Of a DNA stretch of 64,000 nt, positions 944 through 16,808 are shown piece by piece. The stretch is from Planctomycetota bacterium (GTDB lineage Bacteria > Planctomycetota > J058 > JAJDCQ01), in the NCBI GenBank assembly GCA_029260755.1, contig JAJDCQ010000276.1:1-64000 (forward strand), written 5' to 3'. The stretch's first letter is position 1. Each line of letters begins with the position of its first letter. The translations under genes were made by a program, and so were the position numbers. The notes under the pieces are model-generated. The model was not told the origin of the DNA and did not search any database. It worked only from the letters and a program-made list of their open reading frames with translations.

Positions 944-960
944 TTGGCATCGCGCTTGCT
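944..960 (+). promoter_or_regulatory. Sigma-54-like promoter site (a)
   Basis: TTGGCATCGCGCTTGCT has GG at 946-947 and GC at 958-959 with exactly 10 bases between, which is the invariant sigma-54 -24/-12 spacing. The predicted start near 971 leaves a leader of about 60 nt before the gene at 1030. That gene has a good ribosome site (GAGAAGGAG). The -24 box reads TGGCAT rather than the usual TGGCAC. Confidence 0.5.
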
Positions 961-1029
961 TTACCTCCCGGCGGGAAGTCGCGAGGTCTTCCCGATCGCG
1001 CAGCCGGCAGACGAGAGAGAAGGAGCGTC

Positions 1030-1566
1030 ATGAGTAGCGAGAGTCACGAAACCAACAACCCCGAGGTGGAAGCGATCTGCGACTACTTCGAACGCAAGCT
1101 CGAGGAGTCGAAGGGTGAGCCGCCCGGGCCTCCGGCTCCTGTCCCGACCGGCATGGAGGAGACGCCGGGCGAGAGGACGATACGCCTGATTCTCGGCCGG
1201 TTTCCCCAGGTGATCCGATACAAGGACGGCGTTCGCGAGTACCGCCCGTCCTCACCACCGCCCAAGGTGCCGTGTGTCTTCTACCTCGCCACCGAGCATG
1301 AGGTCCTCTACGTCGGAAAGACGACCCGGCTCGAGAAGGCGGTCGCCTTCCACGCGGAGGACATCCCGTTCGACCGCGTCTTCATTTTCGACTGCGAAAG
1401 CCACAGCGAGCTCGAGAAGACGACGCTCGACGAGTGGGTCCGCCTCCGCCCCCGCTTCAACACGCCGCTCAACTACGCCCTGACCCCGACGCGGGACATC
1501 GAGGGGCGCTGGTCTCTCGGAATCGATCACCGGGCCTACAACTACTACCTGGAGGAGGATCAGTGA
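1030..1566 (+). CDS. GIY-YIG nuclease-like phage protein
   Basis: 178 aa. Residues about 75-150 follow the GIY-YIG pattern: a first strand CVFYLA in the GIY position, then LYVGKT in the YIG position, a helix, the strand FDRVFIFDCES, and LRPRFNTPLN near the end. This arrangement is known from small phage GIY-YIG proteins in which the first motif is degenerate. The N-terminal 70 residues are acidic and proline-rich. It is the first gene of the morphogenesis cluster, preceded by GAGAAGGAG and by a sigma-54-like site. Its stop overlaps the next gene's GTG start. The role could be packaging-related cleavage or DNA processing; enzymatic activity is not assured because the GIY glycine is missing. 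Confidence 0.6.
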   Translation: MSSESHETNNPEVEAICDYFERKLEESKGEPPGPPAPVPTGMEETPGERTIRLILGRFPQVIRYKDGVREYRPSSPPPKVPCVFYLATEHEVLYVGKTTRLEKAVAFHAEDIPFDRVFIFDCESHSELEKTTLDEWVRLRPRFNTPLNYALTPTRDIEGRWSLGIDHRAYNYYLEEDQ

Positions 1567-1829
1567 GAGACGAGGAGCTTCTCAACCAGAAGGAAGTCGC
1601 TGCTCGACTCGGAGTGGGCGTGCAGACGCTGCGCGACTGGCGACGCACGGGGCGCTTCCTCGAGCCCGTTGCCGATCGGTGGTGGTCGTGGCCGATCGTG
1701 CGGGCCTGGCTCGCCGAGCAGCACGCCAGCAACACCGAGCGACGACATGGAGAGGACGCCGGAGTGTCGCAGTCGGTCCGTGTTATCGCCAAGCGGTGGG
1801 ACGCCGAGGCCCGGCGCAAGGCCGGATAG
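1563..1829 (+). CDS. HTH DNA-binding protein, terminase small subunit (Nu1-like) candidate
   Basis: 88 aa. The GTG start at 1563 shares bases with the stop of the preceding gene (GTGA), indicating translational coupling. Residues about 5-50 form an excisionase/MerR-type helix-turn-helix (LNQKEVAARLGVGVQTLRDW) followed by a short wing and WPIVRAWLAEQ. Lambda Nu1 has the same winged-helix class, and position just ahead of the large terminase fits a DNA-recognition subunit. The gene immediately before the large terminase is an alternative for that role. Residues 51-88 are basic and unassigned. Confidence 0.5.
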   Translation: MRDEELLNQKEVAARLGVGVQTLRDWRRTGRFLEPVADRWWSWPIVRAWLAEQHASNTERRHGEDAGVSQSVRVIAKRWDAEARRKAG

Positions 1830-1876
1830 GCACGGGTTTGCACGGGAGGCCCCGAGCACCCGGGATGTCGCCGCGC

Positions 1877-1893
1877 TTGGCATCCCGGTTGCT
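1877..1893 (+). promoter_or_regulatory. Sigma-54-like promoter site (b)
   Basis: TTGGCATCCCGGTTGCT has GG at 1879-1880 and GC at 1891-1892, exactly 10 bases apart. It lies in the gap before the gene at 1918. The predicted start at about 1904 falls right at the GAGGAG ribosome site (about 1906-1911). It differs by one base in 20 from site (c). Confidence 0.5.
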
Positions 1894-1917
1894 CTACTCC
1901 CGCCGAGGAGACCGAGC

Positions 1918-2385
1918 ATGCAACCCAACACGACGAACAACGAAAAGACCCCTGGCAACGGAATGCCTACTCACCTGCGAAAGGCCCTCGACAGAAGGAA
2001 GGCCCCTGACGCTGCCAGCCCGAAAGCCGACGCGAGCAACGAGCAGGACGCACGCGAGCGCCTGATCGCCCTCATCGAGAGCGCGAACGACTACGAGTCG
2101 ATCGGCGAGGCCCTCCAGCAGATCGCCGTCGAGTTGCTGCGGAAGAACCTCGACCACAGGCTCGCCGCGGCAGCCCGAGACCTCGTCAACCGTCGTCGCC
2201 AGACGCTCGACAAGCAGCTCAAGGCCCAGCAGGAAAAGCACGTCTGGGAGAGCATCGAGCTTCTCACGGCGCGCGAGCACGACGCGCTCGAGGGGATTCG
2301 GGCCGACCTGGCAGCGAAGGCGGAGGAGGCGCAATCGAACGGGGTGGTCACGGAAGCGGCGGACGACGACGAGGTGTCGTCTTGA
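1918..2385 (+). CDS. Helical phage protein upstream of large terminase
   Basis: 155 aa, starting at ATG 1918 after GAGGAG. The first 45 residues are low-complexity and polar (Asn, Lys, Ala, Asp). The remainder is strongly helical and charged, with heptad-like stretches around residues 60-140, and the C-terminus is acidic (ADDDEVSS). Its TGA overlaps the TTG start of the large terminase, so the two are translationally coupled. Position and size fit a terminase small subunit or a packaging accessory protein, but no family motif is recognised. Confidence 0.55.
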   Translation: MQPNTTNNEKTPGNGMPTHLRKALDRRKAPDAASPKADASNEQDARERLIALIESANDYESIGEALQQIAVELLRKNLDHRLAAAARDLVNRRRQTLDKQLKAQQEKHVWESIELLTAREHDALEGIRADLAAKAEEAQSNGVVTEAADDDEVSS

Positions 2386-3845
2386 TCACCTGCGGATCGA
2401 TTCGCGCCCGCTGGGAGCCCCTCGACGGGACCGCCCAGCGCGCCGCCATTCACCACGACACCGGCATCGACGTCGTCATCACCGGTGTCGGCGGCGGCAA
2501 AACGCAGCTCGCCGCCTTCAAGATGCTCTCGTGGGCCCTCCGGCACCCGCGGCGTGAGGACGGACGACCGACCAACTGGCTCGTTCTCGGCCCGGACTTC
2601 CCCACCGTCGGCAAGGTCCAGCTCGAGTCGATCGTCGAGCGCTGCCGGGAGACGAACGTCGGCGAGAAGGGGATCATCAAGAAGTGCGTTGCGGGCAATC
2701 AGCCCCGGCTCGAGCTCTGGAACGGCGTTCAGATCCTCGGCAAGTCGGGAACGCATCCCAACGCGCTCAGAAACCACGAGTTCGACGGCTTTTGGATGGA
2801 CGAGGCCGCCGTCATGAGCGAGGAGGCGTTCTCCATCGCCATGACGCGTCTTCGGGCCTCGAGCGTCGTCCGTGCGATCATCACGAGCTCGCCTCAGGCG
2901 AACTGGCTTTGGAAGATCGCCAACGACGAAGGAGACGCCTACAGCGATCTCCGCAAGCGCACGCCATTCCGTCTGCACCGGTGGAAGACCACCGAGAACA
3001 AGACCAACAACGCGGACGTGATCGCCACGATCGATGCCGCGCTCCGAGGCGCCAACCCCGACCTCGCCGCCCAGGAGCTCGACGGCCTCTTCCTCGGCAC
3101 CGAGGTGCGTCGGGACGTCTTCCGCGGCCTCGACCTCGCGTTCGGCGGGCAGCACAAGGAGAGGCTGACCGGCGACAAGCAAAAGGCGTACGTGGTCGGC
3201 GTCGACCTCGGGCAGTCTCGCGACTGGACCTGGTTCGTCGCGATGAACCGCCAGGGCGTCGTGCTCGCTCAGGAGCGGTTCAAGGGCGACACCGTCAACG
3301 TCGATCGCCGCCACTTCTACCCCTTCGTCGAGCAACGCCTCTTCGACTTCGTCCAGCTCTGGGGCGCCAAGCGGATCAAGGTCGACGAAGCCCTCCACGG
3401 CAAGGCATTCGTCCAGAACCTCCACGTCAGCCCTCGAGCTCGGGGCATCCGGATCGACGGGTATCGGACCGACCAGCCCTCGCGGAAGGCCGAAGCGATC
3501 ACCGCCCTCGACGTTGCCTTCGGCAGGGGTGACCTCCGGATCCCGGACAACTGGATCGACGAGAGCGGGCGTGAGATCAGCGTCTCCCACGTCGGCCAGC
3601 TCCGCCGCGAGATCAACGAGCTCGTCGTCGAGGACCTGTCTTCGGGCCGCCGTCGCTACGACCACCCGTCCGGGGGCCATGACGATGGCGTCGTCGCCCT
3701 CGCCCTCGCCTGGCAGGAGGTCAGCCAGATCCCGACGAAGAGCCCACTGCCGGACCTGAGCCTCCTCGCCAAGCGGAAGCCGACTCCGCCCGAGCTCCTC
3801 TACAAGTTCGGACCGACGGTCCACATCAACAGGTGGTGGGCGTGA
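2382..3845 (+). CDS. Phage terminase large subunit
   Basis: 487 aa. The ATPase domain has Walker A TGVGGGKT at residues 34-41 and Walker B FDGFWMDEA at about 135-143, followed by the coupling motif IITSSP. The RNase H-like nuclease domain shows VVGVDLGQSRDW near residue 273 and HDDGVVALALAW near 432, supplying the expected acidic residues. It packages DNA into proheads by ATP-driven translocation and cuts the concatemer. The TTG start overlaps the upstream stop (TTGA), and the stop overlaps the portal start (TGATG). Length is normal for the family. Confidence 0.9.
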   Translation: MITCGSIRARWEPLDGTAQRAAIHHDTGIDVVITGVGGGKTQLAAFKMLSWALRHPRREDGRPTNWLVLGPDFPTVGKVQLESIVERCRETNVGEKGIIKKCVAGNQPRLELWNGVQILGKSGTHPNALRNHEFDGFWMDEAAVMSEEAFSIAMTRLRASSVVRAIITSSPQANWLWKIANDEGDAYSDLRKRTPFRLHRWKTTENKTNNADVIATIDAALRGANPDLAAQELDGLFLGTEVRRDVFRGLDLAFGGQHKERLTGDKQKAYVVGVDLGQSRDWTWFVAMNRQGVVLAQERFKGDTVNVDRRHFYPFVEQRLFDFVQLWGAKRIKVDEALHGKAFVQNLHVSPRARGIRIDGYRTDQPSRKAEAITALDVAFGRGDLRIPDNWIDESGREISVSHVGQLRREINELVVEDLSSGRRRYDHPSGGHDDGVVALALAWQEVSQIPTKSPLPDLSLLAKRKPTPPELLYKFGPTVHINRWWA

Positions 3846-5398
3846 TGAGACGACCGCTGCCCGACCTTCGAGAGCGCGTGCCTGGGGCGATGGCTGGCCC
3901 CTGGCGTCGCTGGGCCGATGCCAAGTGGCTCGGCCCCTACACGCCAAGCAACGTCCCCCACTGGGTCCGCAAGCTGATGCGGCGGGACCCGCAGATCGCC
4001 CTCGGCCTCATCGCCTTCAAGGCTCCCTTCTTCGGCATCGAGTATCGGGTCGAGGGATCGACACCAGAGATCAGGGCGTTCGTCCAGAAGACGCTCCTCG
4101 AGCGGCGCGAGGTGTTCGAGAAGCTGCTCTGGTCGGTGCTGAACGCGATCGACTTCGGCTTCCAAGCGCACGAGCTCCTCTGGCGGATCGAGGACGTGAC
4201 GGTCGACGAGGACGGCCCGGGTGGCCTCCCCGAGCGCACGTTCTTCCGGGCCTACACCCTCCGCGAGTTCAAGGATCTCGATCCCGAGCGCGTGGAGCTC
4301 GTCACCGACCGCCAGACGGGACGCCTCGCCGGCATTCGAGTCGACGGCAGCGTCTACCTCCCGTCCGACAAGGTGCTCCTTGCCACCCACCAGGCCGAGC
4401 ACCAGAACTGGTGGGGCGAGTCCGCGCTCGATCGCGCCTACCACCCGTGGTACTGGGTCAACCACCTCTACCTCTACATGACCCGCTACCTCGAGCAGAA
4501 GGGCAACCCGCCGCTGATCGGCCGGGCGCCCTACGAGAACCGGACGTCCGAAGACGGCGGGCCACCCCGGAACTGCCTCGATCTGCTCGGCGCCGAGCTC
4601 GCCACGCTGCGCGGCGGCGGCAACGCGACCATCCCTCACGAGGTCGACGCCAAGGGCCACCAGCGCTGGGACATCTCCGAGCTCACGCACTCGGCCCGCC
4701 TCGACCAGTTCCTTCCCGCGATCCAGCACCTAGAAGACCTCAAGCTCCGCGCCATGCTCGTCCCCGAGCGGATCGTCACTCAGCAGTCGACGGTCGGCTC
4801 CTTCGGCATGAGCGAGACGCACCTCGACGTCTTCTTCTCCAACCTGGAGGTGATCAAGCGGTTCCTGATCCTCGGGACGCTCAACGCCGGACCGGTCCAG
4901 CTCCTCGTCCGGAACAACTTCGGCGCAAAGGCCCCGGTGCCGAGGTTGGCCGCGAGCGAGCTCTCCCGGCAGAGCAAGGCGTTGCTGGCCGACATCGTGA
5001 AGCAGGCGCTGCTCATCCCGAGGACGCTCGACGACGGACGGGTCTACTCGACGGCTTCCATCATTGATGACATCAGAGCGCTCGAGGCCCTGAACATCCC
5101 CCACCGGCGGCCCCAGGACGTGGCGGTCGCGCCAGAGGGTGGCCGGCAAGATCAGACCGCGGCCCCCTCGGCACCGTCTGCCCCCACCGCCGAAGACCTC
5201 GCCCGGCACAGCGACACCACCGCGTGCGTCGCCCGGCGGTATGGGGTCTCCCGCCACACCGTCTGCCGATGGGCGAAGGCCGGGGCTCCGTGCCTCCCGC
5301 TTCCCGGCGGTCGCTACCGCTTCAACCCCCGAGAGCTCCACGACTGGCTCGCCCAGCACCAGGCCGCGAAGGCCGAGGAGGTCGACCGTGCCGCATAG
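3845..5398 (+). CDS. Portal protein (DUF935-like) with C-terminal HTH domain
   Basis: 517 aa. Residues 1-440 follow the Mu gp29/DUF935-type portal pattern: an N-terminal region with DPQIALGLIAFKAPFFG, a central KVLLATHQAEHQNWWGESALD-like segment, and RFLILGTLNAGP near 345. It forms the dodecameric ring through which DNA enters the head. After an Ala/Pro linker, residues about 457-510 are an excisionase-type helix-turn-helix (VARRYGVSRHTVCRWAKAG then RYRFNPRELHDWL). This is an unusual appendage for a portal. There is no frameshift between the two parts. ATG 3845 overlaps the terminase stop; GTG 3833 is possible but would overlap more. Confidence 0.8.
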   Translation: MRRPLPDLRERVPGAMAGPWRRWADAKWLGPYTPSNVPHWVRKLMRRDPQIALGLIAFKAPFFGIEYRVEGSTPEIRAFVQKTLLERREVFEKLLWSVLNAIDFGFQAHELLWRIEDVTVDEDGPGGLPERTFFRAYTLREFKDLDPERVELVTDRQTGRLAGIRVDGSVYLPSDKVLLATHQAEHQNWWGESALDRAYHPWYWVNHLYLYMTRYLEQKGNPPLIGRAPYENRTSEDGGPPRNCLDLLGAELATLRGGGNATIPHEVDAKGHQRWDISELTHSARLDQFLPAIQHLEDLKLRAMLVPERIVTQQSTVGSFGMSETHLDVFFSNLEVIKRFLILGTLNAGPVQLLVRNNFGAKAPVPRLAASELSRQSKALLADIVKQALLIPRTLDDGRVYSTASIIDDIRALEALNIPHRRPQDVAVAPEGGRQDQTAAPSAPSAPTAEDLARHSDTTACVARRYGVSRHTVCRWAKAGAPCLPLPGGRYRFNPRELHDWLAQHQAAKAEEVDRAA

Positions 5399-6578
5399 CT
5401 CGTCGTCATCGATCGTCCACTTCCCGTCGGGAGGGGTCTTCCTCGCCGCGTCCGGCGCCGCACGGTTCACGAAGGAAGTCCTTCGAGTCGGCCGCTGGGT
5501 CCACCCCGACACCGGCCAGCGGATCGCCTTCGACGAGGTCGAGCTCGAGCGGCTGGCAGCCGCCACCAACCAGTGGATCAACCTCGGCAACAAGGTGTGG
5601 TTCAGCTCGGGGCCCCGCCCGCACAACGCGGACGCCCTTCGGAACATCGGCTTCTGGTCTCGCTTCCGGGTGGACGCCGGCAGCCTCGTTGCCGACGTCG
5701 ACGTTCCCGCTGCCGAGGTCGCCGAGAAGATCGGCCAGACGATCACCGACGTCTCCGCCGGCATCCGCTTCGACGTCAACGCGAGCACCGGCGAGCACTT
5801 CGACGCCGTGATCGTCCACGTCGCGGCTACGCCGGCACCCGTGATCCCCGGTCAGGACAACTTCGTCCGGCTCGCCCGCGAGCTCGACGCCGCCACCGAT
5901 GCCCAGGAGGAAACCCCGATGAACGAAGAGCCCGTCGTCGACCAGGCCAGCGCCGTCCCCGAGGAAGCCGAGGAGACCACGCCGGAGGAGGAGGAGACGC
6001 CGACCGGCAGCGTCATCGACCAGATCCGGTCGATCCTCCAGCTTCCCGCCGACGCCGACGAGCCCGCGATCATCGACGCTCTGCGCCGGGTGATCTCCGA
6101 GTTCGCTCCGCCCCCTCCCGAGGCTCCCGAGGAGCCGGCGGCCGACCCGATGACGCCCATGAGCCTCTCGAGGGACGTCGAGCTCTCCCGTCTTGCCTCC
6201 CGCGTCTCCGAGCTCGAGACCGAGAACGCCAAGGTCCGCCAGGCCGCTGCCGAGCGTGAGGTCGAGATTGTCCGCGAGCGGACCGTCGAGCTGGGTCGCC
6301 CGATGAGCGAGGACGTTCGTCGAGCCGCGATCAAGCTCTTCAAGGGCGGACTCGAGAAGGAGGCTCGCCAGCTCCTCGACCTCTCCGTCGAGCGGGCCGG
6401 TGTGAAGACCGACCTCTCCGTCCTCCCAAGCCCCGGCGCCCGCGCGCAGGGCCGTGCCGATGCCGAGAGCGACGCCGCTGCCGCCGAGATGCTGCTCGCC
6501 CGCGGCTACACCGTGAAGCGCGACCCCCAAACCGGCCGAATCGTCGAGGCCAGCCCGCCCCACGCGAAGGCCAGCTAG
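5388..6578 (+). CDS. Prohead protease/scaffold (Mu gpI-like)
   Basis: 396 aa, GTG start at 5388 behind GAGGAGG, overlapping the portal end by 11 bp. Residues 1-165 are a compact beta-rich domain (VHPDTGQRIAF, FWSRFRVDAGSLVADVDVP, ITDVSAGIRFDV), consistent with a Mu gpI-type maturation protease. Residues 178-300 are acidic, with runs of Glu and Pro, then a coiled coil (LASRVSELETENAKVRQ), the usual scaffold make-up. It should shape and then process the prohead. Catalytic residues cannot be assigned by eye. An in-frame internal start at 5919 could yield the scaffold part alone. Confidence 0.7.
   Translation: MPHSSSSSIVHFPSGGVFLAASGAARFTKEVLRVGRWVHPDTGQRIAFDEVELERLAAATNQWINLGNKVWFSSGPRPHNADALRNIGFWSRFRVDAGSLVADVDVPAAEVAEKIGQTITDVSAGIRFDVNASTGEHFDAVIVHVAATPAPVIPGQDNFVRLARELDAATDAQEETPMNEEPVVDQASAVPEEAEETTPEEEETPTGSVIDQIRSILQLPADADEPAIIDALRRVISEFAPPPPEAPEEPAADPMTPMSLSRDVELSRLASRVSELETENAKVRQAAAEREVEIVRERTVELGRPMSEDVRRAAIKLFKGGLEKEARQLLDLSVERAGVKTDLSVLPSPGARAQGRADAESDAAAAEMLLARGYTVKRDPQTGRIVEASPPHAKAS
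5904..5921 (+). promoter_or_regulatory. Internal Shine-Dalgarno and start for nested scaffold protein
   Basis: Inside the protease/scaffold gene, a strong AGGAGG (5905-5910) precedes the in-frame ATG at 5919 by 8 nt. Translation from it would give a 219-aa acidic coiled-coil protein beginning MNEEPVVDQAS. Lambda C/Nu3 and Mu I/Z use the same nested protease/scaffold arrangement. Confidence 0.6.
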
Positions 6579-6595
6579 AAAGGACTCAACCAGCC

Positions 6596-7294
6596 ATGCC
6601 CGGACAAGTTCTTCCCTCTGTGACCAACGTCGAGATCGTCGACCGAGTCGTACGCAGCCGTGCCGAGCCCTACGTCCAGGGCCAGGATGCCGTGCTCGAC
6701 GCGAGCGTTCGTGACCCCGGCAGCAGTCGCCCCACCCTCATTCGCCCCGGCACCGTGATCGTGCGGGCTGTCGGGACGCACAAGTTCGTCGTCGCCGGCA
6801 ATCCCGTAGGAGCCGGTAGTCAGCCGGCCTCCGTCCTCGCCTCCGAGGCTGCCGACGGCCAGTGGCCCGGCACCACGATCGGCATCGCGATCGACGGTGG
6901 GGTCACGTTGGGCATCCAGCTCGGCACCAGCGACGACGACAACGCCGCCGTGATCGCCGCGCTGAACGCCCACCCCATCTTCGCCGCGCACTGCATCGCC
7001 GACGAGGACCAGGGGTTCGTCCGGATCCGCACGCGGTTCGCCGGTGCCGATCGCTACATCCACGTCCACTCGAGCCTCGGGTCGGCCTTCGGGCAAGCGG
7101 GGATCGACGGCGTGGGGCGCGATGGCGACTACCGGGTGACCGAGGACTGGGCCGACATCCGCGATGCCGCGGGCAACCCGGTCGACACGCCCGTCACGAC
7201 TTCGCTCGTCGGGTTCTACAAGACCACCAACCTCGTCGCCCTCACCGCCGAGGCGCGGGCCGTGCTCTCCCGCCGCGGGTCGCAGTTCGAGTAG
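6596..7294 (+). CDS. Head decoration protein
   Basis: 232 aa, starting at ATG 6596 after AAAGGAC, 17 bp downstream of the scaffold gene and 44 bp before the major capsid gene. The protein is beta-rich with few long helices (TLIRPGTVIVRAVGTHKF; TIGIAIDGGVTLGIQLG). Its place between scaffold and major capsid is where lambda gpD-type and larger head-stabilising proteins are encoded. It likely binds the outside of the expanded capsid. The assignment rests mainly on order and composition. Confidence 0.6.
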   Translation: MPGQVLPSVTNVEIVDRVVRSRAEPYVQGQDAVLDASVRDPGSSRPTLIRPGTVIVRAVGTHKFVVAGNPVGAGSQPASVLASEAADGQWPGTTIGIAIDGGVTLGIQLGTSDDDNAAVIAALNAHPIFAAHCIADEDQGFVRIRTRFAGADRYIHVHSSLGSAFGQAGIDGVGRDGDYRVTEDWADIRDAAGNPVDTPVTTSLVGFYKTTNLVALTAEARAVLSRRGSQFE

Positions 7295-7338
7295 CACACG
7301 GCGGAATCGATCGAAACCAACCTGAGAGGAGAAGCTAG

Positions 7339-8415
7339 ATGGCCGGCACCCAGCTCGAGGCGACGTTCGGCGTTCGCACGCTGACGAAGGTCCTGACGAC
7401 CTTCGCGGACGACAGCCTCGACAAGTTCTTCCTCGGCATCTTCGAGCGAGCGGATCAGATCCGACCCGAAGGCCGACTCGTCGAGTGGGACGAGGAGCGG
7501 ATGCACCGCCACCTCGCCCCGATCGTCGGGCACACCTCCCCGTCGCCGAAGCTCGAGGAGACCACGCGCATCAACAAGACGTCGTCGATGATGCACGTGA
7601 AGCTCCACAAGGACATTCCGGGCGAGCGGCTCTTCTTCGACCGGGCGGCGGGCAGCCTTCGGCCCAACGCGGGCGGAGTCATCGCGAAGGAGCTCCGCGA
7701 CCTGGCCCTGGCGGTCATGAAGACCGTCGAATGGGCGTGCGCCAGCACGTTGCAGGGCCGGTTGTCGGTGAACGAACGGACCGTGCCGGGGTCGGAGTCC
7801 TCGTTCGAGCTCGCCTGGAACGTCTCCACCTACCTCCGGCAGGCGAACTGGAGCGAGCCCGACACCAAGATCGTCAGCGACGAGCTGCCGCAGATCGAGG
7901 CCGCCTACCTCCACGGCTCGGGGATGCTGCCCTCCTCCGCGATCCTCAACGACGTCACCAAGCGCTACTTCCACGGCAACGACGAGGTGCGCGACTGGGC
8001 GAAGGAGGTCTACGCGGCCGAGGCGCTCACGTCGTCCATCACCGACGCGCGGCTGCTGAAGTCGATGAACCTCGCGGGGATGAGCTGGCAGAGCAACCCC
8101 GGCGGCTACGTGCCGAAGGAGGGGCCGAACGCCGGAACCTTCCAGCGGTTCATGGGTGACGACCGGGTGGTCATCCTTCCGGCCGACCAGCGGCTCCCCG
8201 ACGTCCTCGCCCTCGCCCTCGGCCACGGCATCGTCCCCCGCAACCTCTGGGGCAACGAGGGGCAGATGGGCATCGAGCTCGCTCCGAGCCCGGGGTGGTA
8301 CGCCTACTCCGAGGCGACGAGCAACCCGCCCGGCGTCCGGCTCTACGCGGGCTGGGTCGGTCTGCCGATCGTCCTCTTCCCCCAGGGCATCCTCGTCGCG
8401 ACCGTCCGGCAGTAG
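7339..8415 (+). CDS. Major capsid protein (gpE-like)
   Basis: 358 aa, ATG 7339 behind GAGAGGAGAAG, the strongest ribosome site of the cluster, as expected for the most abundant virion protein. The order and layout match lambda gpE/HK97-fold capsid proteins: an N-terminal arm, a region with ERADQIRPEGRLVEWDEERM, a long helix (IAKELRDLALAVMKTVEWA, the presumed spine helix) and a beta-rich C-terminus ending PIVLFPQGILVATVRQ. There is no N-terminal delta domain long enough to replace the separate scaffold. Confidence 0.8.
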   Translation: MAGTQLEATFGVRTLTKVLTTFADDSLDKFFLGIFERADQIRPEGRLVEWDEERMHRHLAPIVGHTSPSPKLEETTRINKTSSMMHVKLHKDIPGERLFFDRAAGSLRPNAGGVIAKELRDLALAVMKTVEWACASTLQGRLSVNERTVPGSESSFELAWNVSTYLRQANWSEPDTKIVSDELPQIEAAYLHGSGMLPSSAILNDVTKRYFHGNDEVRDWAKEVYAAEALTSSITDARLLKSMNLAGMSWQSNPGGYVPKEGPNAGTFQRFMGDDRVVILPADQRLPDVLALALGHGIVPRNLWGNEGQMGIELAPSPGWYAYSEATSNPPGVRLYAGWVGLPIVLFPQGILVATVRQ

Positions 8416-8452
8416 GCGATGAGGGTGGCCGCTCTTGACCGCCTGGGGTGGC

Positions 8453-8827: not shown

Positions 8828-8858
8828 GGAACATGCCTCTCTATCAGCGGAGCGAGTC

Positions 8859-9329
8859 GTGAGCCTAGCACAGGACTCGCCCATCGTGACCGAGCAAGAG
8901 GTCGCCGAGATCACCTTCGAGGGCGATCTCGGCAACCTCGACCTCGGGGAGGCGACGGTCGAGGGGGCGACGCGACAAGCGACGAACGCGCTGAGGCGTT
9001 GGGCGAAGACGAGAGGAGTCGACCCGGATCGGATCACCAACGTCGACGACTTCAAGGCGGCAGCGGCCTACTGGATCTGTGCAACGGTGTTCGCGGCTCA
9101 ACCCCAGGCTGACGAGGAGAACGCGAGGAAGGCGGAGAGGTATGCCCAGCGCTACTTCGACGAGCTGCGGGCGATCATCGTGGAGACGGACGATCAGCCC
9201 GATGCTCGAGCGTTGGGGGATCGAGGGCTGCCCCGGGTCGTGAACCTCGACGCGATGCCGAGCATGACGATGCCGAGGGACAACCGCCGTCCGGGTCATG
9301 GCGCTCCCCTCTTCTTCCGAGGGACGTAG
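8859..9329 (+). CDS. Head-tail connector/adaptor protein candidate
   Basis: 156 aa, GTG start at 8859 with GGAG 7 nt upstream. It begins VSLAQDSPIVTEQEVAEITF and continues with helices (ATRQATNALRRWAKTRGV, FKAAAAYWICATVFAAQP), like gp6/DUF1320-type adaptors that sit under the portal. The gene lies two bases before the next one. The C-terminal 40 residues are disordered and Pro/Met/Arg-rich. The call follows position after the capsid gene and the helical profile. Confidence 0.5.
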   Translation: MSLAQDSPIVTEQEVAEITFEGDLGNLDLGEATVEGATRQATNALRRWAKTRGVDPDRITNVDDFKAAAAYWICATVFAAQPQADEENARKAERYAQRYFDELRAIIVETDDQPDARALGDRGLPRVVNLDAMPSMTMPRDNRRPGHGAPLFFRGT

Positions 9330-9331
9330 CG

Positions 9332-9802: not shown

Positions 9803-9852
9803 CAGCCCCAGACGCGGGCTCCGTCTACAATGGCTCGCTTGGAGAACCAGAG

Positions 9853-10998
9853 ATGAACGCCCAGATCTACTGTGACGAGTCAGGTTTCACCGGGAGCAAG
9901 CTCCTGGATCGAGCCCAACCGTATTTCACTTACGCAAGCGTGAGCATGAACGCGGCCGATGCAGACGAGCTGATCGATCGCGTGCGGAAGAACAACAAGC
10001 TTCAGAAGGTCGAGTTCAAGTCCTCGAATCTCCTCAAGCATGAGCGGGGCCGAAGGGCGATGACGGAGGTCATCGAGAGTGTCGCCAAGGAGGCGAGGAT
10101 CGTCGCCCACGACAAGAAGTTCGCGCTGGCGTCGTTCATCTTCGAGAACGGCTTTGAGCCAGCGCTTGCTGCCAACAACGCGCTCTTCTACTCGATCAAC
10201 TTCCACAGGTTCATCTCTGGCATCCTGCATGCTCTCTTCGAATCGAAGGACGAGCCGGCCGAGGCCCTATTCGAGCGGTTTGAAGCCACGATGCGATCGC
10301 TCGACGCCGAGGAGCTGATCGGACTCTTCTCCGCCCCCGACGCGCCAGACGACTTGGTGGTCGCTGAGGGAGTCGTTGGCGACATCGGCACATTTCTCAC
10401 GTGTCATCGAGCTCGCATGGCCGAAGAGCTCGACACGATCCGGAAGCTCGCCTCTGCGCGCTGGGCGCTCGACCTCAGCATGACATCGCTCTTCGCGCTT
10501 CTTTCGCACTGGAGCGACAGGCACGGATCCATCGAGGTTACGTGCGACAAGTCCAAGCCTCTGCGGGCATATCAGGATCTGCTCGACGTGTTCGTCGGGC
10601 GGACCGATCGGGCCTACAGCCGCTGGTCGGGACGCAGCACTCTCATGACGCCCAACCTCACGCGTTCGATCCAGTTCGAGAACTCGAAGAACGTGCATGG
10701 CCTCCAAGTGGCCGACGTCTTGGCTGGAGCCGCGGCGCACATCTTCCGAGTGCGCGGCCAGACGGACGCCGACGCCACTCATTGGCTGAACATCTTCGAG
10801 TCCTGCGAGTCGTTCGGCGATGAGTGCATCGTTCCGACCCCCGACGCCATTGACCTCGACCAAGAAGAGCCGTTCGTAAATGCGCTCGTCCTCAAGGAGC
10901 TTCTCGATAGGACGCTGAGGGGCGAGAGCCTGCTCGCCCAGATGGAGGACTTCATCGCAGTCGCGAGGAGCTCGTTCCACGAGACGACTCGTGAGTAG
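9853..10998 (+). CDS. DUF3800 family protein (moron, possible defence gene)
   Basis: 381 aa. The N-terminus IYCDESGF is the hallmark of DUF3800, a predicted RNase H-like fold found in phage and defence-related settings. Further family features are the central helical block and the late FENSKNVHGLQVADVLAGA segment with a conserved Asp. ATG 9853 has GGAG 7 nt upstream and a TACAAT -10-like box at 9826-9831, suggesting its own promoter. It sits between completion and tail genes and has visibly lower GC. It is probably cargo that alters the host or excludes other phages; its activity is unproven. Confidence 0.75.
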   Translation: MNAQIYCDESGFTGSKLLDRAQPYFTYASVSMNAADADELIDRVRKNNKLQKVEFKSSNLLKHERGRRAMTEVIESVAKEARIVAHDKKFALASFIFENGFEPALAANNALFYSINFHRFISGILHALFESKDEPAEALFERFEATMRSLDAEELIGLFSAPDAPDDLVVAEGVVGDIGTFLTCHRARMAEELDTIRKLASARWALDLSMTSLFALLSHWSDRHGSIEVTCDKSKPLRAYQDLLDVFVGRTDRAYSRWSGRSTLMTPNLTRSIQFENSKNVHGLQVADVLAGAAAHIFRVRGQTDADATHWLNIFESCESFGDECIVPTPDAIDLDQEEPFVNALVLKELLDRTLRGESLLAQMEDFIAVARSSFHETTRE

Positions 10999-11488
10999 CA
11001 GCACGCTCGGAGCCTTGAGGGACTTCTTGGCTGGAGCTAGCGGCGACGTCCGAGCCTCGGTCAACGCCGAGTTGCCCAACGCCCTCGACGAGGCCGCCGT
11101 GGTGTTTGCGCGAGACCACCGAGGTCGTCAGCAACGTCGATCGAAGGCCCCCGCCCTCAACATCGAGATCGTCCCCCGACCGGCATCGCCGCCACGCCCC
11201 ATCGGCATCGGCTGGGTCGAACGCGACGTCGCTCTCGACATGAAGGCCACCCTTCGAGGGAAGGCCACTGCCGCCGGCGAAGAGCAGCTCGACCAGGTCG
11301 AGGCCGTCGCCGCCATCCTCGAGCGGAGATACCACGGGAGGACGAGGCTCGATCTCCCCAGCACTGCCTCCTTCCGGCACAGCGTCGCGGAGGTGACCGA
11401 CGTCGACGAGGTCCCGGAGTCGTCCGAGATCGCTCGGTCGGTCGTCCGGGTGACCTTCACCTTCACCGAGAGTCTGGACAAGCGATGA
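10991..11488 (+). CDS. Tail terminator-like protein
   Basis: 165 aa, GTG start overlapping the end of the DUF3800 gene by 8 bp. The profile is an N-terminal helical region followed by alternating strands, ending in the beta strand RSVVRVTFTFTES, common in tail terminator (gpU-like) proteins. It contains RRYHGRTRLDLP and a VTDVDEVPE segment. It overlaps the next reading frame (ATGA at 11485). The assignment rests on position after the completion protein and general fold; no catalytic or binding motif is seen. Confidence 0.45.
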   Translation: MSSSTLGALRDFLAGASGDVRASVNAELPNALDEAAVVFARDHRGRQQRRSKAPALNIEIVPRPASPPRPIGIGWVERDVALDMKATLRGKATAAGEEQLDQVEAVAAILERRYHGRTRLDLPSTASFRHSVAEVTDVDEVPESSEIARSVVRVTFTFTESLDKR

Positions 11489-11524
11489 CACCCCCAACGC
11501 CGGTGGAGCGTCCCCTCCTCAGCA

Positions 11525-11806
11525 ATGCCGAAACTGAGATCTCAGCGCGAACGGAAGCGCGGCCGGAAGTTCTCGCGGGTGCCGATACAGGGAGACATCC
11601 CGTTCTGCTGCCTTCCCGGCGGGACTCTCGTGTCGTTCCAAGTGGACTCCCGGGTGAAGTCTTGCGAGCTGCGCGACCGACTTCGAGACGGCGGCTTGAT
11701 CGTGCTCCAGGTCTTCGGGAGCGGGCACGGACGAACGAACGGCAAGGGCGGGAGGAAGTGGATCACCGCAAGGCTCGACGCGCCGCTGATCCCATCCCGC
11801 CACTGA
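11525..11806 (+). CDS. Small phage tail-region protein, possible tail assembly chaperone (upstream ORF)
   Basis: 93 aa, ATG 11525 without a strong ribosome site. The N-terminus is very basic (KLRSQRERKRGRKF), followed by a compact beta-like core (FCCLPGGTLVSFQVDS; GGLIVLQVFGSG). A second frame overlaps its end in the -1 register, as for lambda G/GT-type tail chaperones located just before the tape-measure gene. No canonical X-XXY-YYZ slippery heptamer was found in the overlap, so the two may simply be separate genes. Family unknown. Confidence 0.45.
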   Translation: MPKLRSQRERKRGRKFSRVPIQGDIPFCCLPGGTLVSFQVDSRVKSCELRDRLRDGGLIVLQVFGSGHGRTNGKGGRKWITARLDAPLIPSRH

Positions 11807-12027
11807 CCAGTAGCCTCACCTTCGAGGACTGCATCACCTTCTGCCGAGCGGCAGCCCGCCACGAAGTCCTCCGCCACGAGCTCGACGAGCACCGAGCCTT
11901 CCTCGTCCAGATCGCCCGACGGCTGACCCGGCAGTGGCAGCTCAGCGATGCCGACGCGATCGACGAGGCCGGACAGGTCGTTCTCGACAACATCGTGCGG
12001 GCGGTCGGCCCAGGGGCCCAGTCATGA
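11758..12027 (+). CDS. Small helical tail-region protein, possible chaperone partner
   Basis: About 89 aa if started at GTG 11758, which has GGGAGGAA directly upstream at tight spacing. The credible part begins at about 11806: SLTFEDCITFCRAAARHEVL, then a helical region with ARRLTRQWQLSDADAIDEAG. It could instead be reached from the preceding gene by -1 frameshifting. Frame and position before the tape-measure-like gene suggest a tail chaperone role. It ends eight bases from a convergent minus-strand gene. Confidence 0.4.
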   Translation: MDHRKARRAADPIPPLTSSLTFEDCITFCRAAARHEVLRHELDEHRAFLVQIARRLTRQWQLSDADAIDEAGQVVLDNIVRAVGPGAQS

Positions 12028-12035
12028 GGTCACAG

Positions 12036-12353
12036 TCAGCCCTGGCTCTTGAGCATGTCCTCGTACTCACGGATCGCTGCGTCAACTGCCATCCACGAGG
12101 CGATCCCCTTGATCGTCGCGGCATGACGATCCACGAGGAAGCCTCTCGGACCTCCCGCGGCGTAGAGCCAGTAGTCCTGAGGGCAGAGCCCACACGGCCG
12201 CCACTTCGGGAAGAGTGCCCAGCCCCAAGTCCGTTCGATCGTCGCTTGGTCGTCGAAGTGGATCGAGCCATGCCCGCCCGCCCGGTGCGCCCTCCCGGCG
12301 TACCGTCCGCGGAGGAGGATGAGCAGCCTGAACTTCGCTCCCTCGAGCGTCAT
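12036..12353 (-). CDS. Small hypothetical protein (minus-strand moron)
   Basis: 105 aa, starting at ATG 12353 with GGAGG nine bases upstream. Sequence is rich in Trp, Arg and Gly (TWGWALFPKWRPCGLC, QDYWLYAAGGPRGFLVDRH) with a helical C-terminus (MAVDAAIREYEDMLK). No family is recognised. It points against the tail genes and lies between the putative chaperones and the tape-measure-like gene. It is therefore a likely accessory insertion with its own promoter, which was not located with confidence. Confidence 0.5.
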   Translation of the reverse strand: MTLEGAKFRLLILLRGRYAGRAHRAGGHGSIHFDDQATIERTWGWALFPKWRPCGLCPQDYWLYAAGGPRGFLVDRHAATIKGIASWMAVDAAIREYEDMLKSQG

Positions 12354-12420
12354 CACCGCGGGCCTCCAGTCGGTAGTTTCATCCGCACGACCATGGACGC
12401 AAGTGGGTTGCGGCGCTGTC

Positions 12421-13005
12421 ATGTCTGACGCCGTCGAGCAGGCCATCGTCAACTTCGTCGTCCGCGGAGCGTTGGAAGCCCAGCGGAAGACCAACCAGGT
12501 CGACGCGGATCTCACCTCGGTCGAGCGGTCGGGCCAGCGGGCCGAGAACGCGTCGAAGGCGGCTGACACCGCCGCCCAGAAGGCAGCCCGCACTGCCGAG
12601 GAGCTCACCCGGCGAGCGGAGCAGGCCCTCGGGCGACTGGCTCAGGTGGCCGGGCTGGCAAGCTCGGCCACACGGGTGGCTCAGCGGGCTGGAGCCCCAG
12701 AAGAAGTCGGGGTCGTCGCCGGAGCCTTCGGTGAGGCCGTCGGCACCGGAGCTCAAGCCTTCGTCCTGACGCCCGGCGGCCCGTTCGTGAAGGGTGGCGT
12801 GGCGATCGGCGCGGGTGTGCTCGCCGGGGGGTCATCCCTCTACGAGGGGTTCGGCCGGATCGAGGAGCAGAGGGCGAAGGAGCGGGAGCAGACGGCCAAG
12901 GCGGTCGCCGACGAGATTGAGAGGAGGAAGGACGGAGAGGAGATCGTGAAATCGGCAGCCTTGGACGTCATGAGCCAGCGGCTCGGAGGCTCGCGGATCC
13001 GATGA
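12421..13005 (+). CDS. Very short tape-measure-like protein
   Basis: 194 aa from ATG 12421. Residues 1-80 are Ala/Glu/Arg/Gln-rich and predicted coiled coil (AENASKAADTAAQKAARTAEELTRRAEQAL). Residues about 95-140 are Gly/Ala/Val-rich and hydrophobic (GGPFVKGGVAIGAGVLAGGSSLY), then a charged helix follows. Coiled coil plus hydrophobic core is the make-up of tape-measure proteins, and the position fits. If so, a length of 194 residues would imply a tail of only about 29 nm at 0.15 nm per residue. Alternatives are an internal virion or injection protein. The stop overlaps the next start. Confidence 0.45.
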   Translation: MSDAVEQAIVNFVVRGALEAQRKTNQVDADLTSVERSGQRAENASKAADTAAQKAARTAEELTRRAEQALGRLAQVAGLASSATRVAQRAGAPEEVGVVAGAFGEAVGTGAQAFVLTPGGPFVKGGVAIGAGVLAGGSSLYEGFGRIEEQRAKEREQTAKAVADEIERRKDGEEIVKSAALDVMSQRLGGSRIR

Positions 13006-14294
13006 CGACCCACATCGTTCGCCTGGTGAAGGCCGGCCAGCCCCTCCTCGAGCTCGGCACCCACACCCCCTTCGTCGACCCGTCCCACACCTACGAGCAC
13101 ACCGACGACGAGCCCCCGCGCCTCCTCGCCGTCAACAAGCGGTGGGTCATCGAGGGACGGATCTTCGGACCCGATGCCGAGGAGACCCTCGACGCCTGGC
13201 ACCAACTCACCGGCGTGCTCGAGGACGCCACCAATTACCCCGATGCCGTGGAGCTCGTCCGCGACGGCACGGTGGTTGAACGAATCTCGCGCGACGCCGG
13301 CTACGAGGGATTCAAGATCCTCAACCTGACCTCCCCTCGTGACCCCCTCTGGCAGTGGCGAGGGGTGATGCCGTGGAGGATCGAGATCGTCGGGAGACGA
13401 CGGGTTGGCCCGGACGTTCTCGCCGTCGAGCTGACCGAAGTCTTCAACTACGACGACCGGGGGCTGCTCACGCGGACTTTGACCGGCAGTGTGGAGACGA
13501 AGGCCGGGACGAGCGCGGTGGAGGCCGCCCGGCAGTTTGGACTGGCTCCACCCGGCCCCGACTTCGGCTTCCTCACCCGGGGGCCGGACGGGGTCAACGC
13601 GGAGAAGAGCAACCAGGCCGACACGAAGGCTCGGTTCACCTCCGTCCTCCAGCAGCTCGGCACGGCGATCCCGGCAGGGGTCAGTCCCGTCTTCGGCCTG
13701 GCGGTGTCCGTCGTGAAGGCGGACGGCCAGACGACGACCACGACGACCGTCACGGCCCGAGGTGCTGACGCTCGAGCGGCGGTTGAACGCGAGCGCCCTG
13801 CCGGCGCGCTCCTCCTCGACCAGGTCAACGTCGACGAGGGGAACCGGACGGCAACGGGGGTCTACGTCAGCCAGAGGAACAGCGACAACCAGCGACGCCT
13901 CCTCCGCACCCACTCGTTCTCGTCTCGAGGTGGGGGGAGGCCGATCCGCTACACCCGAAGGACGGGCGGCCGTCGTCCTGCCCGGCATGTGCTCGCCTAC
14001 TCTGAGGTCGAGCTCGTCGAGACGATCAGGGTTGAGGTGCAGGGAACGCCGGACCTGGACGACTTCGAGCTACCCGAGCCGCTCAACCTTCCCGAGGACA
14101 CCGACGCTCGGCAGTTCAGCCCTTGGCCAACGAGGGCGGTGATCGGTGCCGATCGGGATGGGGATCGGTGGGTGATGGGGCTGCGGCGGGTCTATCGGGT
14201 CGAGGAGCTCGAACTGGCTCCGTCGGGGCTCGGACGAGCGCTGTTCGAGGTCGACGCTGCCGGAAGTGATCCTGCGGCAGAAACTGCTCGATGA
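13002..14294 (+). CDS. Phage tail structural protein (distal tail/baseplate type)
   Basis: 430 aa. ATG 13002 overlaps the previous stop (ATGA). It is beta-rich with a first domain (HIVRLVKAGQPLLELGTHTPF; TLDAWHQLTGVLEDATNYP) like distal-tail or tail-tube-adjacent proteins. A central region follows with a Thr run (TTTTTTVTARG), then charged beta segments. It is the first large gene after the tape-measure-like protein. No enzymatic motif is seen. A hairpin at 14299-14328 follows the stop. Confidence 0.5.
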   Translation: MTTHIVRLVKAGQPLLELGTHTPFVDPSHTYEHTDDEPPRLLAVNKRWVIEGRIFGPDAEETLDAWHQLTGVLEDATNYPDAVELVRDGTVVERISRDAGYEGFKILNLTSPRDPLWQWRGVMPWRIEIVGRRRVGPDVLAVELTEVFNYDDRGLLTRTLTGSVETKAGTSAVEAARQFGLAPPGPDFGFLTRGPDGVNAEKSNQADTKARFTSVLQQLGTAIPAGVSPVFGLAVSVVKADGQTTTTTTVTARGADARAAVERERPAGALLLDQVNVDEGNRTATGVYVSQRNSDNQRRLLRTHSFSSRGGGRPIRYTRRTGGRRPARHVLAYSEVELVETIRVEVQGTPDLDDFELPEPLNLPEDTDARQFSPWPTRAVIGADRDGDRWVMGLRRVYRVEELELAPSGLGRALFEVDAAGSDPAAETAR

Positions 14295-14298
14295 GAGA

Positions 14299-14328
14299 CG
14301 GCGTCCGCAGCGCAGGCCACGGACGCCG
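14299..14328. terminator. Hairpin between convergent genes
   Basis: CGGCGTCCG (14299-14307) pairs perfectly with CGGACGCCG (14320-14328) across a 12-nt loop. It lies between the stop of the tail gene at 14294 and the stop of the minus-strand gene at 14350, where a bidirectional terminator is expected. There is no clear T tract on either side. Confidence 0.5.
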
Positions 14329-14349
14329 CAAAGCTGAACCCAGTCCGCC

Positions 14350-14772
14350 CTAGACGAGGGCGAGAAGTGAGAAGGTTGCGAGGCCCACGAGGACGCTAGC
14401 AACGATGAGAGAGGTCGCCGGACCTCCGAGGATCGCCACGGTCTTCGCCGCGACGATGTATCCGCCCAGGTTTGATGTCGTCCGGTACGCGGCGAGCGCG
14501 AGCCCACCTCCGACGCTCAACCCGGCGAGGCCAGCCCCGACTGCGCAAGCGCCCTGCGGCAGTCCGCGCTGCTCGTCCGGCGTCGTCGAGTCCGACTCGG
14601 ATTCGGGACCGGAGTCCACCCCCGAGGGGGCGGGACCCCCGTCGACACGACCGTCGTCTGGCGCAGCACTGCTGGTTGCCGATTCCGCACGGACGTTCGA
14701 TGGCGAGGAACTCGACATGCTAGCGATGGCAAAGCCGCCCGCGACGCCGAGAAGAAGCAGAAAGAAAGACAT
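14350..14772 (-). CDS. Small membrane protein (moron)
   Basis: 140 aa from ATG 14772, with GGAGGA in good position. Residues 1-20 form a first hydrophobic segment (SFFLLLLGVAGGFAIAS). A Ser/Asp/Pro/Glu-rich linker of about 45 residues follows, then two or three hydrophobic segments (AVGAGLAGLSVGGGLALAAY; SLIVASVLVGLATFSLLALV). It could be a membrane-modifying accessory protein, for example in superinfection exclusion, or a holin-like protein. No lysis partner is adjacent. Orientation against the tail genes supports independent expression. Confidence 0.5.
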   Translation of the reverse strand: MSFFLLLLGVAGGFAIASMSSSSPSNVRAESATSSAAPDDGRVDGGPAPSGVDSGPESESDSTTPDEQRGLPQGACAVGAGLAGLSVGGGLALAAYRTTSNLGGYIVAAKTVAILGGPATSLIVASVLVGLATFSLLALV

Positions 14773-15184
14773 AGCTTCCTCCGATGAGCTTGGATCAGGT
14801 TCCTTCTTGGCTGAACGGTATCTGGCTAGATCACCTCCGATCGAATCAGCACCTTGCGATGACGGCTTGGCCTGGATCACCTCCTTCGTGCTTGCAGCCG
14901 CGGCGGACGACAACGCGCCGACCTCCTCTCTAGGACACTCCGCTGAGATGATACGACCCTCGGCGTCAGATACGGACACGCTGGCAAGTTACCATCCCGG
15001 CGGCGCTTACGCCTCGCGTCGGCGTGTCTGGCGCCGGCGCCGTCGTGAGGGACGACAGCCTTTCCGGACGCGCTCCTTCAGGCCGTTCCAGGAACGTCGC
15101 TCCGGAACGTGCGCGGTCGACGCAACCGTGGCTTCAATGCACCCGGGGATGAACCCAAAGTCGAACGCACAGAGGGACGGGCTC
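14773..15184. other. Intergenic region between divergent accessory genes
   Basis: About 410 bp between the minus-strand membrane protein and the plus-strand DAC-like gene. It is GC-poorer than the structural genes and must hold promoters for both directions. No textbook -35/-10 pair stands out. A GGAACG direct repeat lies near 15090-15117, and a GGCGCCGGCGCC dyad lies near 15040. Alternative ATG starts for the downstream gene occur at 15137 and 15149. Confidence 0.4.
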
Positions 15185-16732
15185 GTGAAAGACGATCAAG
15201 AAGACGAAGTGGCCGTGACCGGCGGGAGCACCGAGAGTGAACCGGCAGTGAACGACGACGTCCTCCGCCGGGTTGCCGGCCTCCGCTTCGAGGCGATCAC
15301 CTTCGTCGAGAGGATCGCGGAGATCGTCGGAACCCCGATCGATCTAGTCCTCGTTGTGCTCCATGACGAGGATCCGCGGCGCGGTGAGTCTCGTGATCCC
15401 GAGCCGCCAGTGTGGCGTCCGGGCTCCTTCTCGGAAACCGCCTGGATCATGCGCCTTCGCGATCCGCAGTGGAGCAAGATCGGAGCTGGCGAGCTGCCCC
15501 GCCGGGACGGCGAGGAGAGTGAGGGATACCACAACCGGATCTACCGACTCCTTCACCAGCCCGGCATCGGCCCAGCGCCGGATACGCGGGGATGCCGTCG
15601 TCATGCCTCTAGCGGCCAGCGGCTCGTTGGGACCGACGCACGCAACCCCTGCTGGGCTTTTCTTGTTGCTGAAATCGCGGGAGAGAGTCGCACGCCGCCG
15701 CTCTTCGTCGATGCAGTCGCATACAAGCTCGTCCAGATGTACGATCGGAAGCTACCTCTTGCGCCTGACCCGGCCTCGCCCTACGCGGTGGGCGCCGTGC
15801 AGACCGCTCCTCAAGAGGTGATCAGGTCGGCCGCGGAGTTCTACCTACGCTGGCTGCTCCGCCTCAATCCCCGTTCGGGACGCTTCGTCGATACCTTCAA
15901 CACGATCTCGCTCTCGCGCTACGAGGGTGCAGATACCTCGGGCGGCATTGCGATCTGGCCCGGGTCCGAGCCGTCGCCGTCTGCGTACGAGATTGGCGTC
16001 CAATTCGAGCAACCCGTCGAGCTTGAGCAGCACCGACGCGTGCGGAAGGTGCTCGAGGCTTGTCGCGACGGACAGCAGCTGCTTGCTGCGAGAGGCGGGG
16101 CTCTCGGCGTTGATCTCTTCGGCATCGGCTGTGTTGGAGCGGATAGCGAGGGCGTCTTCCAAGTCTCTTTCAGGGGGAGGGGGACGTGGGAGCTTGCTCG
16201 CGGCGACGAGGTGCTGATGCGGGTCCAGAACGGGGAGCCCCGACCTCCCGCCCCGCCACTAGACGAAACCGCCGAGGTCAATCAGCTGAGGGCGACCTTC
16301 CCCGGTCTGCCGCCTGAGAGGCTCAGCGAGTTACTGCGCACTCTCCAAACACTGTCGGACAGCTCGCGCGGCGGTCTCATCGTGATCACTAACGAGGCGT
16401 CGAGTGAGGCCACCCGGCTGGCGCGTCAAGGCACGCAGACTCTGCCAATCGCCTTGAGCGAAGATCGAATCGACAACCTGAGCCGCGTGGACGGAGCCGT
16501 ACTCATCTCGGACACCGGAGAGATTCACGCTTTCGGCGTGATCCTAGACGGCCTCGTCGACGCGGCGGGGGAAACGAGCGAGCAAGCGCGGGGGTCGCGC
16601 TTCAACTCGGCGCAGTGCTACGTCGCTACTCGGCGGAGGGAAGGGCCGGACGTCGCTGTGGTCGCCGCCGTGGTGTCCGAGGACAGCAACGGGAGGGTGG
16701 ATTGGTCGGGCCTCCAGGACGGGAGAGAGTGA
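15185..16732 (+). CDS. DisA_N/DAC-like nucleotide-sensor protein (moron)
   Basis: 515 aa from GTG 15185 (GAGGGA 8 nt upstream); ATG 15137 or 15149 are alternatives. The C-terminal 130 residues follow the DisA nucleotide-binding (DAC) fold: GGLIVITNEA, then VDGAVLISDTGEIHAFGVIL carrying the DGA motif (about residue 435), then ARGSRFNSAQ where cyclases have GTRHRAA (about 470), then VVSEDSNGRVDW. The RHR motif is RFN here, so diadenylate cyclase activity is unlikely; a sensor role, as proposed for DACNV-type domains in conflict systems, is more plausible. The N-terminal 300 residues match no family I recognise. It is flanked by tail genes. Confidence 0.6.
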   Translation: MKDDQEDEVAVTGGSTESEPAVNDDVLRRVAGLRFEAITFVERIAEIVGTPIDLVLVVLHDEDPRRGESRDPEPPVWRPGSFSETAWIMRLRDPQWSKIGAGELPRRDGEESEGYHNRIYRLLHQPGIGPAPDTRGCRRHASSGQRLVGTDARNPCWAFLVAEIAGESRTPPLFVDAVAYKLVQMYDRKLPLAPDPASPYAVGAVQTAPQEVIRSAAEFYLRWLLRLNPRSGRFVDTFNTISLSRYEGADTSGGIAIWPGSEPSPSAYEIGVQFEQPVELEQHRRVRKVLEACRDGQQLLAARGGALGVDLFGIGCVGADSEGVFQVSFRGRGTWELARGDEVLMRVQNGEPRPPAPPLDETAEVNQLRATFPGLPPERLSELLRTLQTLSDSSRGGLIVITNEASSEATRLARQGTQTLPIALSEDRIDNLSRVDGAVLISDTGEIHAFGVILDGLVDAAGETSEQARGSRFNSAQCYVATRRREGPDVAVVAAVVSEDSNGRVDWSGLQDGRE

Positions 16733-16791
16733 CGGGCGAGAACTCGTCCAAAGCGATCCGCGGACCGTCTCGGAGGTAGGAGACGCTCTCC

Positions 16792-16808
16792 TTGGCATCG
16801 CGTTTGCG
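16792..16808 (+). promoter_or_regulatory. Sigma-54-like promoter site (d)
   Basis: TTGGCATCGCGTTTGCG has GG at 16794-16795 and GC at 16806-16807, exactly 10 bases apart. It lies in the gap after the DAC-like gene and just before the tail gene at 16820. A start 12 bases downstream would fall at the ATG itself, giving a leaderless message. That is a point against a simple promoter reading for this copy. Confidence 0.4.

Follow-up and report, generated by a model that had tools for sequence, protein, structure and literature searches.

What switches on the packaging and virion genes of a tailed prophage that carries a series of sequences resembling promoters of the alternative sigma factor sigma-54 (RpoN)? 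The question is raised by a prophage in a planctomycete, located on contig C197 (78.9 kb) of an assembly of 12.26 Mb in 276 contigs; the first 64 kb of this contig are the window analysed here. The first-pass annotation of the window had pointed to four sites with exactly 10 bases between GG and GC, and all four were recovered, each on the + strand: (a) at 944-960, TTGGCATCGCGCTTGCT; (b) at 1877-1893, TTGGCATCCCGGTTGCT; (c) at 9486-9502, TTGGCATCCGGGTTGCT; and (d) at 16792-16808, TTGGCATCGCGTTTGCG. Sequence evidence suggests, with a probability that we put at roughly 0.7, that the packaging/virion gene cluster of the prophage is driven by sigma-54 (-24/-12) promoters. Sites (a) and (b) are very probably such promoters and (d) possibly, while for (c) this role is doubtful.

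Four sigma-54-type sites on one strand of the prophage

The four sites place the -24 GG and -12 GC in the TGGCAY-N5-TTGCW context of sigma-54 promoters, (d) ending in G rather than W. GGCATC is common to all of them, and (a), (b) and (c) additionally share TTGCTYTA. Genome-wide counts were made by pattern matching with reversed controls. The 12.26-Mb assembly contains five copies of the exact word TTGGCATC-N4-TTGC, four of these on one strand within 17 kb of the prophage, and the reversed control of this word has no match. The generic word TTGGCAY-N5-TTGC has eight matches, again four in the prophage (reversed control, 2). Since the other four, spread over ~12.24 Mb, are close to the composition-based chance expectation of ~5 genome-wide, the background matches chance and it is the prophage that stands out. 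From the density outside the prophage, the probability of at least four generic words in 20.5 kb is ~8e-11. An equal density of such sites in the host, which the first-pass annotation had named as the finding that should overturn its reading, was looked for and is not what the assembly holds: the sites are ~600-fold enriched in the prophage over the rest of the genome.

Scans of the window gave the same picture. With up to two mismatches allowed it contains 8 matches, compared to a mean of 1.65 in shuffled sequences, which never reached 8. A sigma-54 matrix, approximate and written from general knowledge, was applied to the 64-kb window and ranked the four sites as its top four; a fifth, weaker site at 10217 is also on the + strand of the prophage. 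A crude scan for sigma-70-type promoters found no match in 1-20 kb. Three of the four sites lie in gaps between genes, in a region (604-20498) of which ~12.4% is noncoding by the gene calls made here. Another 12-letter gapped word, CGAGCTCG-CGAG, likewise reaches four copies in 20 kb, so four copies of an arbitrary word of this kind are not rare in themselves; the significance of the cluster comes from the match to an independently known consensus and not from word repetition alone.

The host has the machinery that such promoters need. A profile search of the assembly returned one rpoN match (PF04552, E 3.5e-60, contig C170) and ~57 high-scoring domains of enhancer-binding proteins (EBPs), indicating a large sigma-54 network. 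The extended word is also over-represented among planctomycetes: TTGGCATC-N4-TTGCTYT has 24 matches in 392 planctomycete genomes, 21 of them outside the host (reversed control, 2), and none of the other genomes has a cluster of it. Nine foreign loci were read: six are plainly in intergenic DNA, two coincide with doubtful open reading frames (ORFs) and one falls within a prepilin gene, so that these matches mostly fit functional promoters rather than coding coincidence.

The genes that follow the sites form a packaging and head cluster of the tailed-phage type, with terL, portal and capsid genes in order on one strand; all genes from 1030 to ~20.5 kb are on the + strand. Of the sites, (a), (b) and (d) occupy intergenic gaps, upstream of terminase-side genes or of a presumed tail gene. 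ATG 1030 has a good Shine-Dalgarno sequence and is 70 bp downstream of site (a), whose predicted +1 at 971 would give a leader of ~59 nt; the ORF that begins at this ATG (1030-1566, 178 aa) has no Pfam or PHROG match. It is followed by a gene for an 88-aa helix-turn-helix protein (1563-1829) resembling both excisionase/regulator and terminase small subunit families. Site (b) is in the 88-bp gap behind this gene, 25 bp before ATG 1918, and from its predicted +1 at 1904 a 14-nt leader would just retain GAGGAG before the start codon. The 155-aa ORF called at 1918-2385 directly precedes the genes for the terminase large subunit (2382-3845; PF03237 1.1e-6, phrog_2 6.5e-24), a Mu-type portal protein (3833-5398; PF06074 3.2e-27) and a major capsid protein of the Phage_cap_E family (7339-8415; PF03864 2.6e-17). 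The C-terminus of the portal protein holds a helix-turn-helix (HTH_17, PF12728, residues 462-509) like that of the separate 88-aa protein.

The two remaining sites are less favourably placed, and the first-pass annotation had already described one as intragenic and one as leaderless. The former is (c), inside the ORF at 9332-9802, where it encodes FGIRVAL in frame. Its predicted +1 at 9513 is ~340 nt before the likely start, ATG 9853, of a DUF3800 cargo gene (9799-10998; PF12686 2.5e-14). Site (c) is the weakest case and may be a coding coincidence or a silent intragenic site. The leaderless case is (d), which overlaps the likely Shine-Dalgarno sequence of ATG 16820, with a GTG at 16811 also nearby; since the predicted start at 16819 abuts the ATG and leaves the Shine-Dalgarno sequence out, an mRNA from (d) would be leaderless. 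The large ORF behind it (16811-18736) is presumed by position to be a tail/virion gene and has no family match, as is the case for further presumed tail-type genes up to ~20.5 kb. Upstream of (d) is a second cargo gene (15154-16732), encoding a DACNH plus DisA-type (DAC) nucleotide-cyclase-like protein (PF21750 2.2e-12, PF02457 1.6e-8), with its start assigned by eye inside an ORF at 14405-16732. Both cargo genes sit among virion genes: the DUF3800 gene, lower in GC than its surroundings, between presumed tail genes, and the DACNH-DAC gene, possibly defence cargo, just upstream of (d).

Paired palindromes before site (a) and the missing left arm

Transcription by sigma-54 polymerase is silent until an ATP-driven activator acts, and the dyads bound by such activators are typically 80-250 bp upstream of the promoter. 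Two 21-bp palindromes, candidate activator binding sites, are found at this distance from site (a). Palindrome 1 (GGCAGTGTCAGAGACACCGAC, 718-738) is ~240 bp upstream of the -12 element of (a), and palindrome 2 (GTCAGTGTCATGGACACTGAC, 782-802), with perfect 9-bp arms, ~165-170 bp upstream. They are related (GKCAGTGTC-N3-GACACYGAC) and 64 bp apart centre to centre, or ~6 helical turns. Allowing up to one mismatch, they are the only matches to CAGTGTCNNNGACACYGAC in the 12.26-Mb assembly, and a search of genomes of other members of the order did not find the palindrome there. With no further copy of it in the genome, the activator site does not seem to be shared by any host gene, and a role as a host regulon site was rejected. 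Such dyads were seen before (a) only, and it is by sequence that they are candidate EBP sites.

The palindromes are also part of a larger structure. Between them, a consensus scan identified a terminator-like stem with a T-run (743-769, + strand), which would shield promoter (a) from transcription arriving from the left. The region 687-833 is an inverted duplication of ~50 bp, each arm of which holds one palindrome and a TCTATAG word; its segments 707-738 and 782-813 are 81% identical, and as single-stranded DNA it folds exceptionally well (z -4.4). The spacing and distance of the palindromes are as expected of an EBP enhancer, and they may instead serve as an operator or as part of a terminator.

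The contig begins at window base 1, and the left arm of the phage is outside it, which accounts for the activator not having been found. Repeated DNA explains the break: contig C41 has, at one of its ends, a copy (79%) of bases 5-603 of the window, and contig C146 begins with a copy (86%) of bases 1-165, both beside host-type genes. Four copies of a TCACACGA-type repeat occupy 330-606. Integrase genes are present on other contigs of the assembly. EBPs on the small contigs C53, C21, C81, C232 and C274 were considered as the phage's own and rejected, as they sit among host-type genes.

Sigma-54 sites and short activators in uncultivated phages

The first-pass annotation had called dependence of phage morphogenesis on RpoN a rare strategy. 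For uncultivated phages this may be wrong, as dozens in IMG/VR combine an EBP gene with sigma-54 sites. An EBP profile search of IMG/VR matched many contigs, several of them plainly phage; one, L280, carries helicase, ligase, nucleotide kinase, exonuclease and Sak4-like genes, and its EBP matches phrog_7998, a family of unknown function. The phage EBPs are short, match PF00158 and retain the GAFTGA-type loop and Walker motifs. Pfam scans of six of them found no DNA-binding domain, and the proteins end after the AAA+ lid. After a second IMG/VR scan, 62 distinct short-EBP loci had been gathered, and 32 of them have a strong sigma-54 site between -20 and +120 bp of the EBP stop, compared to 7 of 359 other gene ends; since the loci are related to one another, the 62 are not independent events. 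The sites at these loci are on the EBP strand in 60 cases and on the other in 3. Examples are L280:5695-6644 (promoter sequence TTGGCACGAATCTTGCT), L287:5728-7189 and L290:5794-6649, with ~30 more. EBP matches in cultured-phage records were set aside, as they mostly look like mislabelled host contigs.

Having scanned IMG/VR for the extended word as well, we obtained 27 single matches, about the number expected by chance. Two of the matched contigs are full of sigma-54-type sites: IMGVR_UViG_3300036945_000620 (L209) and IMGVR_UViG_3300017716_002524 (L210), which are 72% identical in one protein. In 19-21 kb, NTGGCAY-N5-(T/C/A)TGC occurs 14 times in L209 and 11 times in L210; the sites mostly point along the small genes they precede, and many of their positions match between the two phages. 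In several cases the site is followed by TCA...AGAGCAAC before a small gene. One protein and one DNA query found no relative of L210 among cultured phages. In each of the two IMG/VR scans, both contigs were missing from the 80 best EBP loci, and no activator was seen in the parts read.

Together, these loci are strong evidence, at the sequence level, that phages do make use of sigma-54 control, and the phage modules of EBP and sigma-54 promoter raise the value of the prophage lead. Whether this amounts to a general mode of timing middle or late phage genes that has so far gone undescribed, with many phages using an AAA+-only activator with a promoter behind it and the planctomycete prophage being a variant with palindromic enhancers ahead of its packaging genes, we rate as an even chance.

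Competing explanations and known systems

From the arrangement of sites, palindromes and genes we infer promoter activity, an enhancer role, dependence of virion genes on RpoN and the identity of the activator in the following form. Site (a) would be the main promoter, at which RNA polymerase with host RpoN would wait as a closed complex. An AAA+ EBP on the two palindromes, ~165-240 bp upstream, would loop over and melt it, and transcription would then begin at ~971 and extend across the packaging and head genes. From (b), the terminase genes would receive an additional start; beyond the inserted cargo gene, transcription could begin anew at (d), and (c) may be inactive. The gene for the activator would be in the part of the phage missing on the left, or the activator would be one of the ~57 host EBPs.

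Several observations weigh against this scheme. First, no EBP was found in the window, and no EBP of the assembly could be attributed to the phage; among clear EBP frames in the assembly the shortest has 452 aa, so a short phage-type EBP is absent from it, and the IMG/VR arrangement of an EBP gene immediately upstream of a sigma-54 site was not seen in the window, whose contig starts at base 1. Second, (b), (c) and (d) have half-sites at best and no palindromes. Third, (c) is within a gene and (d) overlaps a Shine-Dalgarno sequence. Lastly, prophage relatives from the same order (TerL 24-28%, capsid 33-37% identity) have no comparable or strong cluster of sigma-54 sites, so the arrangement is not conserved at order-level distance; the stretches of these relatives that were fetched also contain no EBP. 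Searches with TerL and capsid found no closer relative: a TerL peptide pattern matched none in viral and genome collections, and capsid alignment gave distant relatives only, all in genome_contigs and none in viral_contigs, those with names being metagenome-assembled genomes of Planctomycetota from the same order.

The earlier proposal that morphogenesis depends on RpoN and an activator is thus well supported as far as sigma-54 itself goes, by rpoN, the ~57 EBPs and the enrichment, and finds no support in its stronger form, in which all morphogenesis would be RpoN-dependent. Likewise, the sites read well as sigma-54 elements, and the positions of (c) and (d) speak against all four being working promoters.

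A possible alternative, to which we give less than even odds, accepts the promoters as real and places the switch with the host, a host EBP responding to a host signal such as stress or nutrients and thereby controlling virion or cargo expression. In its favour are the ~57 EBPs available in the host, the lack of a phage-type EBP in the assembly and the two cargo genes adjoining (c) and (d). Against it, the host genome has no second copy of the palindrome by (a), and in IMG/VR such promoters often go with an EBP gene of the phage itself. A more restrictive explanation, likewise possible but short of probable, holds that only (a), perhaps with (b), is real, that (c) and (d) are coincidences and that the palindromes serve as operators for a repressor or belong to a terminator. 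The in-frame FGIRVAL codons at (c), the overlap of (d) with the likely Shine-Dalgarno sequence of ATG 16820, and the longer inverted duplication in which the palindromes flank a terminator-like stem are all consistent with it, and according to regulon studies, RpoN sites within genes are numerous and, in the sense orientation, often show no activity (PMC3844500; PMC7657599). Against it, all four sites share an extended word found only once more in the 12.26-Mb assembly.

It is unlikely that the sites merely resemble the sigma-54 consensus and are phage-specific promoters or binding sites, for a phage RNA polymerase, sigma factor or late activator. The shared letters are more than sigma-54 requires (GGCATC throughout, TTGCTYTA in three sites), and the gene for such a factor could have been in the missing left arm; yet at each position that matters these letters are those of the sigma-54 consensus, other planctomycetes have the same word in intergenic DNA, and the sigma-54 network of the host is large. 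A chance cluster in high-GC DNA is highly improbable, for although the motif was chosen after the fact and a second gapped word is likewise present four times in 20 kb, the independently known generic consensus gives P ~1e-10, with all sites on the same strand and three of four in gaps.

If sigma-54 promoters do drive the virion cluster, their silence until the activator acts would provide the phage with tight on/off control through a host factor that has no part in the textbook phage systems, and rpoN mutants should resist such phages. If phages bring stripped-down activators, a function could be assigned to phrog_7998, and ready-made minimal activators would be at hand for studying the opening of sigma-54 polymerase. 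In classical late control, lambda Q, P2 Ogr, T4 gp55/gp33 and T7 RNA polymerase each provide a dedicated late-gene switch; to our knowledge, none uses host sigma-54 with an ATP-driven EBP.

Sigma-54 promoters with enhancers are a known system; for their placement in a phage virion cluster and for phage EBP modules we found no published description in the open-access literature. This literature contained no report of sigma-54-driven phage late genes or gene clusters, with bioRxiv and most subscription journals outside the scope of the search. In the accessible sections of a multi-phylum sigma-54 survey (PMC12316311) and of a Desulfovibrio regulome (PMC4641369), phage gene clusters are not described. 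A remote sigma-54 likeness is noted for a T7-like phage (PMC7693777). Phage phi-1422, tailed like the window phage, is reported to carry a sigma-54-type regulator, and the accessible part of that account does not describe sigma-54 promoters (PMC3391216).

Compared to bacterial sigma-54 promoters with NtrC-type enhancers, the window differs in that its sites are in a prophage packaging/virion cluster and (b)-(d) have no upstream palindromes, and agrees in the -24 GG/-12 GC of TGGCAY-N5-TTGCW, the host RpoN and the paired palindromes at (a). The short-EBP phages L280, L287 and L290, unlike the window, have an EBP, and the downstream genes of L280 are of replication/recombination type; as in the window, their phage genes follow strong coding-strand sigma-54 sites. 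L209 and L210, unrelated phages whose many small genes have their own sites, share with the window an abundance of TGGCAY-N5-NTGC sites, mostly in the direction of transcription.

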